Of a DNA stretch of 64,000 nt, positions 6,222 to 40,969 are shown one piece after another. Position numbers and translations under genes: made by a program. Under the pieces are notes generated by a model. That model saw only the letters and a list, made by a program, of their open reading frames with translations. It had not been told where the DNA came from and did not search any database. The stretch comes from Natronobacterium texcoconense (GTDB lineage Archaea; Halobacteriota; Halobacteria; Halobacteriales; Natrialbaceae): NCBI RefSeq assembly GCF_900104065.1, contig NZ_FNLC01000001.1, forward strand, positions 868,001 to 932,000, in the 5' to 3' direction. Each line of letters starts with the position of its first letter. The stretch's first letter is position 1.

Positions 6222-8195
<1,974 letters not shown>

Positions 8196-11625: not shown

Positions 11626-11707
11626 ATAGTACCAACTGAAACGGCTCACACTCGATCGTACGACGGTTGTACGATCGGGTGTGTGCTGACTCTCGGCGGC
11701 TACTACA
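11626..11707. repeat. 82-bp intergenic repeat with hairpin, copy A
   Basis: This segment aligns without a length difference to 37263-37344. Both begin ATAGTA, end with GGCTACTA-type sequence and hold a central inverted repeat. Here the stem is CGATCGTAC/GTACGATCG with loop GACGGTT. The two copies differ at two stem pairs by compensatory changes (C-G to T-A at the base and T-A to C-G inside). The conserved right arm contains GGTGTG, TGACT and GGCTACTA. The outer ATAGTA and TACTA(T) ends are imperfect inverted repeats. It may be a small mobile element or a structured RNA or DNA site; no function is proven. Confidence 0.8.
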
Positions 11708-37116: not shown

Positions 37117-37262
37117 CTCTATGCGTGGCTTACCCGCTGGCAATTATAACCTTTTTGGACCGCTCAGTTGAACAAGAGTCCACGATACTCCTTTCCGAGC
37201 GTGAATTGGGCCCTACCATCGGCCACACTGTTCTCTTCGAGACGATTTTTCCGGATTGATGT

Positions 37263-37344
37263 ATAGTAACAACCGCAACTATTTACACACTGATCGCACG
37301 ACAGCTGTGCGATCAGGTGTGGATTGACTTGCAGTGGCTACTAT
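37263..37344. repeat. 82-bp intergenic repeat with hairpin, copy B
   Basis: Second copy of the element at 11626-11707, same length. The stem is CTGATCGCAC/GTGCGATCAG, 10 perfect pairs, loop GACAGCT. It ends GGCTACTAT, mirroring the starting ATAGTAAC. It lies between tatA and the peroxiredoxin gene, whose ATG follows 80 bases later. No open reading frame. Confidence 0.8.
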
Positions 37345-37424
37345 AGCTATGCGGCAGTTCTTCCCAATAGCTGACTCATCCGTGAACGAAACTGTCTTTC
37401 CTTTCTGACCGAAACTAGCTGACG

Positions 37425-39385: not shown

Positions 39386-40690
39386 ATGGGTGAAGAAGCC
39401 ACGAAGACGATTCAGACGCGCCTTCACATAGCGTCTGGTGAACGGTCGTGGCTTCACGACGCCCGCCTCGCATCACGCGAGATCTTCAACCAAACCATCC
39501 GCCTCACACAACAAGGGCACACGCGCACCGAGATACAGCAGGAAGTTGACCGCGACGACTTCTTGCGAAACAACAAGTGCGCGGTCGTCGGCAAAGCCCT
39601 CCAAACGTGGGACTCCTACCAGTCACTCCTTGACTGGTGGGAGAACCAAGACGATCCAGATGGAGGCAAGCCGACACCACCGAGTACGGACAAATCTGGT
39701 GCGTACCCGCTCGTGATGGCGCACACGGAAGGCTACCGCCTCACCGTGGACGAAGACACGAACCGGGTGGAGTTCCGCATCAGCCCGAAACCCTACAAGA
39801 AGGTGACGGGCCATCTACGCGGTGAGCCGGACGCGGTGGACGAACTTCGAGATGTCCTCACGTCGGAGGAGGTGGATGTGGGGCAAGCCGAACTCCTGTA
39901 CCGCGATGGCGTGTATTACCTACACGTCACGGTCACACGCGAGTTCGACGTGCCCGAACCCGACACCGCTGATACTGTGGTCGGCGTGGACATCAACGAG
40001 CGCAACGTCGCTCTCACCGCCCTCGACCGCGAGACAATGCGGACGAAGGGCACACTCGTCCTCGACTACGGACGGGTTAAGCAGGAGCGCCAACGCTACC
40101 ACACCATCACCACTCGCTGTCAGGATCACGGTAAGACGAGCATCCACCAGAAACTCGGTGACAAGGAAGAACGATTCACCGAATGGACACTCCATCGTCT
40201 CTCCCGTGCTGTCGTGGAGTTCGCAGAACAGTTCTCGAACCCGGTTATTGTGTTCGAGGATATGGAAGGTATCCGCGACGAAATCAAGTACGGGACGTAC
40301 ATGAACCGCCGACTGCACAAACTTCCGTTCCACAAGTTCGAGAAGTTCGTGTCGTACAAGGCAACATGGCGAGAGATTCCCACGGACACGGTTGATGCCT
40401 ATTACAACTCGAAGACGTGTTCGTGCTGTGGCGAGCGTGGGTATCGACAGGGACGGCGGTTCCGCTGTACGAATGATGGGTGTGACGTGGTGCAAGACCA
40501 CGCCGACCGGAATGCATCGGTGAACATCGCGTGGCGCGAGAAGGCGAAACTCGACGGTAACACGACGAATTACCGGACTCACAAAACCCAGCCGCAAGTG
40601 CGGTTGGTGCGTCTGTCCGGGTCGGGGCGTGTAAACCGCCCAACCTCATCCCGCTCGCTTACCGAGCAGGGAGTGCTAGCGTACGGCTGA
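39386..40690 (+). CDS. tnpB: RNA-guided endonuclease TnpB (IS605 OrfB family)
   Basis: 434 residues. The RuvC-like catalytic residues are present: Asp in VVGVDINERNVAL, Glu in VIVFEDMEGIRDE and Asp in HADRNASVNIAW. A zinc ribbon (CSCCGERG and CTNDGCDV) lies between the last two. TnpB cleaves DNA guided by an omega RNA made from the 3' end of the element, which helps IS605-type elements persist. The length is in the normal range and no frameshift is seen, so it may be active although its tnpA is broken. The guide scaffold would overlap the tnpB 3' end and right end. Confidence 0.93.
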   Translation: MGEEATKTIQTRLHIASGERSWLHDARLASREIFNQTIRLTQQGHTRTEIQQEVDRDDFLRNNKCAVVGKALQTWDSYQSLLDWWENQDDPDGGKPTPPSTDKSGAYPLVMAHTEGYRLTVDEDTNRVEFRISPKPYKKVTGHLRGEPDAVDELRDVLTSEEVDVGQAELLYRDGVYYLHVTVTREFDVPEPDTADTVVGVDINERNVALTALDRETMRTKGTLVLDYGRVKQERQRYHTITTRCQDHGKTSIHQKLGDKEERFTEWTLHRLSRAVVEFAEQFSNPVIVFEDMEGIRDEIKYGTYMNRRLHKLPFHKFEKFVSYKATWREIPTDTVDAYYNSKTCSCCGERGYRQGRRFRCTNDGCDVVQDHADRNASVNIAWREKAKLDGNTTNYRTHKTQPQVRLVRLSGSGRVNRPTSSRSLTEQGVLAYG

Positions 40691-40735
40691 GAGAATTACA
40701 AAAGCCTCGGGCCACCGCGCCCGAGGTTGTTTACC
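40600..40735 (+). ncRNA. Candidate omega RNA scaffold and right end of the IS
   Basis: The last 90 bases of tnpB and the following 45 bases contain several short hairpins and end in the CCTCGGGC/GCCCGAGG stem (40705-40726). In IS605-type elements this position gives rise to the TnpB guide RNA, with the guide read from flanking DNA. Boundaries are inferred from family knowledge; no direct sequence proof. Confidence 0.45.
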
Positions 40736-40738
40736 TGT

Positions 40739-40969
40739 TCAGGCGAGTTCGTACCGCCCGTCGCGTCGCTCGAGGTAACCCCGTTTTCTGAGCGTGCCGG
40801 TGATCGATAGCACGGTCCCTTTCGACAGTTCGAGGTCCGTACACAGTCTGTCGGCTGGACAGCTCCCGTGGGCTGCGAGGTAGTGATAGACGAGTTTCGC
40901 ACGCGGCGACTCGAGGTCGTCTGGTATCGATACGTTTCGTTTCGTCGGAGAGTCCGCGCTCTGTTGCAT
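40739..40969 (-). CDS. Small winged-helix regulator
   Basis: 76 residues. LVYHYLAAHGSCPADRLCTDLELSKGTVLSITGTLRKRGYLERRDGRYEL is a complete helix-turn-helix with wing of the MarR/TrmB-like type. Small stand-alone regulators of this kind are common in halophiles. The IS right end abuts its 3' end. AATAATAAAG upstream (near 40993) is a candidate promoter. The target is unknown, possibly the nearby xapX-type gene. Confidence 0.8.
   Translation of the reverse strand: MQQSADSPTKRNVSIPDDLESPRAKLVYHYLAAHGSCPADRLCTDLELSKGTVLSITGTLRKRGYLERRDGRYELA

Follow-up and report, generated by a model that had tools for sequence, protein, structure and literature searches.

The window analysed here, 64,000 nucleotides of the Natronobacterium texcoconense genome, contains two copies of a short palindromic repeat. 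Copy 1 (11627-11705, plus strand; covariance model E = 1.4e-15) is located between a small predicted minus-strand gene and the gene for the Trm56 tRNA methylase; copy 2 (37264-37343, plus strand; E = 8.8e-23) has a TatA-type gene on one side and a peroxiredoxin gene on the other. The original prediction had placed the two at positions 11626-11707 and 37263-37344 as 82-bp repeats of equal length. Both copies are indeed present there and align over their whole length, with the same order of blocks and with 7-nt loops starting in GAC. The lengths required correction: the element proper, running from TAGTA to TACTA, measures 80 bp in copy 2 and 79 bp in copy 1, which is devoid of one bulged A, and the 82-bp span attributed to copy 1 is one flanking base too long.

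Copy 1 is old and diverged. Its left terminal inverted repeat (TAGTACCAACTGAAA) occupies positions 11627-11641 of the plus strand; the right repeat, on the minus strand at 11691-11705, is partly diverged and ends in ...TCTCGGCGGCTACTA. The two stem arms, which are intact, and the 7-nt loop (GACGGTT) form a hairpin spanning approximately positions 11649-11687, while the flanks have decayed to GA/CA. Copy 2, with a GACAGCT loop and two arm differences from the consensus, is bordered by TA on the left (37262-37263) and on the right (37344-37345), the presumed target duplication; the base that follows is a G, as in the right half of a CTAG-like target. A clean empty site for this locus was not found in congeners. 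Folded as single strands, copies 1 and 2 gave z scores of -4.9 and -4.2, respectively, relative to shuffled sequences. The outer ends, first described as the 6-bp inverted pair ATAGTA/TACTAT, are inverted as claimed, but the repeats are imperfect and extend to about 15 bp; the TACTAT end is found in copy 2, whereas copy 1 terminates in TACTACA.

Two other features of the window deserve mention. Positions 39386-40751 (plus strand) encode a TnpB-like protein with a Cas12f1-like TNB domain, and the 3' end of this gene overlaps a match to the Rfam family sot2652 (RF02657, 191 bits, 40569-40751); the locus is an IS1341-type TnpB with its own sense overlapping (omega-like) RNA. Two stretches of about 1.4 kb (1-1402 and 6453-7853), 6,451 bp apart and 76-84% alike, are a diverged gene duplication.

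A strict pattern search of the host genome yielded 36 matches, as against none in the reversed control. The covariance-model search suggested in the original prediction (model built from 23 copies; cut-off E < 0.001) located the repeat at about 60 distinct places, in unrelated loci, of the 4.0-Mb host genome. The copies fall into two main subfamilies, A (…ACTGCAA…), to which copy 2 belongs, and B (…ACTGAAA…), which copy 1 resembles most. Identical copies occur at unrelated places in the host, four in subfamily A and six in subfamily B. The element was detected in 32 of 37 genomes of the host's family, in 2 of 24 genomes from other families of the same order and on 51 haloarchaeal plasmids (from Natrialba, Natrinema, Haloarcula, Halomicrobium and others), where it lies mostly outside annotated genes. 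Phage records contained no match, and scanning viral contigs with the pattern returned, almost always from AT-rich ones, only matches that look like chance. With 80 bp (the limit being 500 bp), no coding capacity and about 60 dispersed copies, the element has the size, multiplicity and distribution of a MITE. One host locus (L108:456-609; C1:525855-526008) holds two copies joined head to tail, the second cut off at its left end, which suggests an insertion into sequence flanking the first copy.

The ends form imperfect terminal inverted repeats of about 15 bp (TAGTARCMACTGNAA), another MITE character. In the consensus, ATAGTAACAACTGCAA stands against ATAGTAGCCACTGCAA; the left end reads TAGTAACAACTGNAA and the right end TAGTAGCCACTGNAA. 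TA is found on both sides of 27 of 34 host copies and of 17 of 18 Natrialba magadii plasmid copies, CTA and TAG being favoured. The other seven host copies have TA on one side only, the second flank being in most cases GA/TC. Flanks that read GA/TC (or TG) were seen at L025, L044, L031, L038, L045, L004 and L061, with mostly an A-to-C change at the outer base. GA/TC flanks occur even in copies whose element otherwise equals the consensus, and plain TA duplication does not explain them.

To find empty sites, the two flanks were joined for a selection of host copies and the product was searched for in relatives. The gene into which copy L026 is inserted shows no gap in three relatives, so that the net insertion amounts to exactly 82 bp, and the L002 copy is absent from the orthologous site of congener G003. 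At L044 a stop codon of the relatives coincides with the insertion site, G004 reading CTAGGCC where the host has CT and CGGCC on the two sides of the element. At L061 (host C3:351920-352001) a copy interrupts a gene, which we take to be FAD-synthase-like, near its conserved FDLLH motif; the conserved residue is a Leu, requiring TA and not TC. The L044 stop codon and the L061 Leu codon thus indicate that TA was likely the target at these places and that one duplicate has since changed. Target site duplication is therefore apparent from the TA flanks and the empty sites, with exceptions. Copies L025 and L045 were inserted independently but at an identical position of IS605-like right ends (GGCGGGATTCTCTCGCTGT...AAG), sites reminiscent of SMR targeting in Haloquadratum.

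Comparison with known insertion sequences pointed to a group of IS630 elements annotated as ISNma7 or ISNpe3. Those examined, in relatives and at 80 named genome loci, measure 1,055 bp and have TAGTA(A/G)NC(G/A)(T/C)TAGAA ends, the left tip reading TAGTAACC(G/A).. and the right tip TAGTAG.C(G/A)..; their flanks are CTA in 44 of 67 cases and TAG in 47 of 66. Unlike the non-coding repeat, they carry two genes, OrfA with winged-HTH domains and OrfB with a DDE_3 domain. Between 10 and 12 of the 15 end positions (12 in the best case) match those of the repeat, a relatedness expected between a MITE and its partner. The two share the TAGTA tip, an A on the left against a G on the right at position 6, a C at positions 7-8 and AA at positions 14-15, as well as the TA duplication, the CTAG preference and the hosts; they differ where the insertion sequences have (G/A)(T/C)TAGAA and the repeat has ACTGNAA. 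Since tips, left/right asymmetry, duplication and target preference all agree, we named the repeat a MITE of the ISNma7/ISNpe3 group.

The exact MITE ends (ACTGNAA) were found at none of the 80 named ISNma7-group loci, nor was an autonomous element with identical ends. No IS630 transposase was detected in the host assembly or in four other MITE-rich relatives, and PF01609 (DDE_Tnp_1) transposases are absent from the host genome and from genome G012. An IS630 transposase is present in N. magadii, as are such transposases in congeners G001, G003 and G004, G001 having an ISNma7-group copy. With neither a locus bearing the exact ends nor a transposase in the host, the partner is assigned at group level only.

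Several candidates were rejected. The other IS630 groups of the relatives have different tips. N. magadii IS630 copies that resembled parents of the MITE proved to be ISNma7 inserted in the internal CTAG of the MITE. At L309, L320 and L404 (N. magadii and Natrarchaeobius), ISNma7-group insertions of this kind have produced nested composites of about 1.1-1.2 kb with the MITE ends on the outside. Single terminal-repeat ends at C1:344080 and C1:530527 adjoin ordinary genes. An 883-bp segment (L105:994-1875; host C5:92693-93574), also inspected as an autonomous partner, has MITE-type ends, CTA/TAG-like flanks and an AT-rich HAD-hydrolase gene; it is possibly a cargo-bearing derivative, that is, a mobile insertion cassette.

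Altogether, the repeat is very probably (we would put it at roughly 85%) an 80-bp non-coding MITE moved in trans by an IS630 (Tc1/mariner-like) transposase of the ISNma7/ISNpe3 group. Of the three options in the original prediction, namely a small RNA, a cruciform protein site and a non-autonomous mobile element bounded by short terminal inverted repeats, it is the third that is borne out, by the unrelated loci, the TA flanks, the empty sites and the matching IS group.

Mobility could have a different agent. In Haloquadratum, SMRs have ends unrelated to transposons and make no target duplication, and a comparable 82-bp hairpin might be inserted between the T and the A of CTAG by an unrecognised enzyme, with no true duplication, in genomes devoid of IS630 and DDE_Tnp_1 transposases. 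The host is such a genome; moreover, most non-TA copies retain the outermost A/T of the 82-bp form, and it is the next base outward that varies; two copies are located at IS605-type ends, which SMR-A elements prefer as targets (PMC3119063). If real, such an enzyme would account for the GA/TC flanks of perfect copies and for the bursts of identical copies in partnerless genomes. We nevertheless consider it unlikely: the ends resemble those of a known transposon group, which an SMR does not have, TA is nearly invariant on both sides of the N. magadii copies, and two empty sites favour a TA before insertion where one flank now reads TC.

The broader claim of the original prediction, selection for a folded structure, rested on the compensatory changes in the stem. 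These are real: element positions 29/53 are C-G in one copy and T-A in the other, and positions 35/47 are T-A and C-G. Covariation across copies exceeded that of shuffled sequences, the main covarying pairs being the differences between subfamilies A and B. To analyze pairing, 44 host copies and 29 N. magadii copies were each compared with their master sequence, the expectation being obtained by distributing the observed substitutions randomly over the stem positions. Of the one-sided stem changes, 11 of 38 in the host (11.0 expected) and 7 of 40 in N. magadii (7.0 expected) preserved the pair. Pairing kept at no more than the chance rate indicates that individual copies are not selected for it. 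Two-sided changes were rarer (8 in the host, 7 in N. magadii) but always kept pairing, implying a process that alters both arms together. The stem, whose loss in further copies the original prediction had regarded as evidence against it, is disrupted in many copies but maintained in the subfamily master sequences. Paired sites accumulated 1.0 substitutions per site as compared to 1.8-2.1 at other non-loop sites, about half; this lower rate would be compatible with some constraint, although a covariance-model search preferentially recovers copies that pair.

The loops suggested what the process might be. In copy 2 and in copy L045 the loop, GACAGCT, is the exact reverse complement of the majority loop of subfamily A, AGCTGTC; one N. 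magadii copy brings the exactly inverted loops to three, and the loops of copy 1 and of copy L027 are one base off the inverted form. The GAC loop start seen in both window copies is thus that of an inverted loop, found in a minority of host copies, most host loops ending in TC. Template switching within a palindrome is expected to homogenise the arms and to invert loops completely (PMC8794818), and the exactly inverted loops point to it as the source of the paired changes. Each compensatory pair would have originated in this way, as judged from the pattern of the sequences. In several N. magadii copies the loop contains tandem repeats of 40-340 bp and is thus not functionally constrained. Arrays of this type (GCGCGGTTCGGAGCGAG..., GTGAGTGAGAACCGCG...) are found at L331:16921-17164, L332:4605-4888, L342:10969-11088 and L344:1960-2375, and at L110 in the host. 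The BrickBuilt MITE of Porphyromonas gingivalis likewise contains a minisatellite, its sequence and host being unrelated (PMC4596501).

Taken together, these data make it very improbable that the repeat is a structured RNA, small or cis-regulatory, with a selectively maintained hairpin and with copies spread by duplication. The strong stem, the compensatory pairs, the lower substitution rate of paired sites and the position of both window copies in divergent intergenic regions would fit such an RNA. However, single changes disrupt pairing at just the frequency expected by chance, some loops are inverted and others enlarged by tandem repeats, and copies lie within genes and at stop codons. A single model scores the two strands at 112 and 66 bits, near-symmetric values as expected of a DNA palindrome, and no Rfam family was matched at gathering score, the sub-threshold matches being to miRNA-type hairpins only. 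The data thus lend no support to selection on a folded RNA, because pairing decays at the chance rate and loops are inverted; the paired changes are better explained by copying errors in a hairpin with mirrored ends than by a working RNA. Hardly tenable, finally, is a PATE- or REP-like palindrome derived from IS200/IS605, with a Y1 transposase mobilising it as a single-stranded hairpin. The strong imperfect palindrome and the IS605-type TnpB genes in the genome and the window would suit it, but the CTAG targets are symmetric, the empty sites speak against it, and terminal inverted repeats and TA duplication are by definition absent from PATEs and IS605 elements (PMC3119063), which places the repeat outside that class.

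For a MITE of the ISNma7/ISNpe3 group, the following scheme can be proposed. By analogy with IS630 and ISY100, the transposase, presumably one of the ISNma7 group, would bind both ends of about 15 bp, excise the element and reinsert it at a TA, preferentially within CTAG, the TA being duplicated; the IS630-family transposase of ISY100 carries out transposition in vitro with TA duplication (PMC2170065). The strong near-palindrome consists of the two ends and a hairpin-forming core. Matching arm changes would arise in master copies, through template switching and the need for two similar ends, and would spread as these copies transpose. Once inserted, copies decay with no selection on pairing.

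Similar elements are known from other organisms. The Stowaway, Correia (CREE), RUP and Nezha MITEs are also short, non-coding, hairpin-forming and TA-flanked, and depend on Tc1/mariner-IS630 transposases. The element described here is unrelated to them in sequence, is archaeal and has its partner missing from the host assembly. The MITEs and SMRs of Haloquadratum walsbyi are, like it, haloarchaeal, transposase-free, about 80-110 bp long, endowed with terminal inverted repeats and nested with other mobile elements; compared by description, the SMRs differ in having no target duplication and no IS-related ends (PMC3119063). In the accessible open-access literature, which is incomplete, we found no paper naming this MITE family or its ISNma7 link. 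The element is thus of an ordinary kind and, as far as this literature shows, previously undescribed.

These findings carry a warning: compensatory changes in a repeat are not proof of a working RNA. Here a mobile palindrome itself yields such changes, loop inversions being the giveaway. They also raise the question of how MITE-rich genomes can hold identical copies yet no recognisable partner transposase. For Natrialbaceae and other haloarchaea, the element itself provides a marker of genome mobility that is both widespread and easy to recognise.
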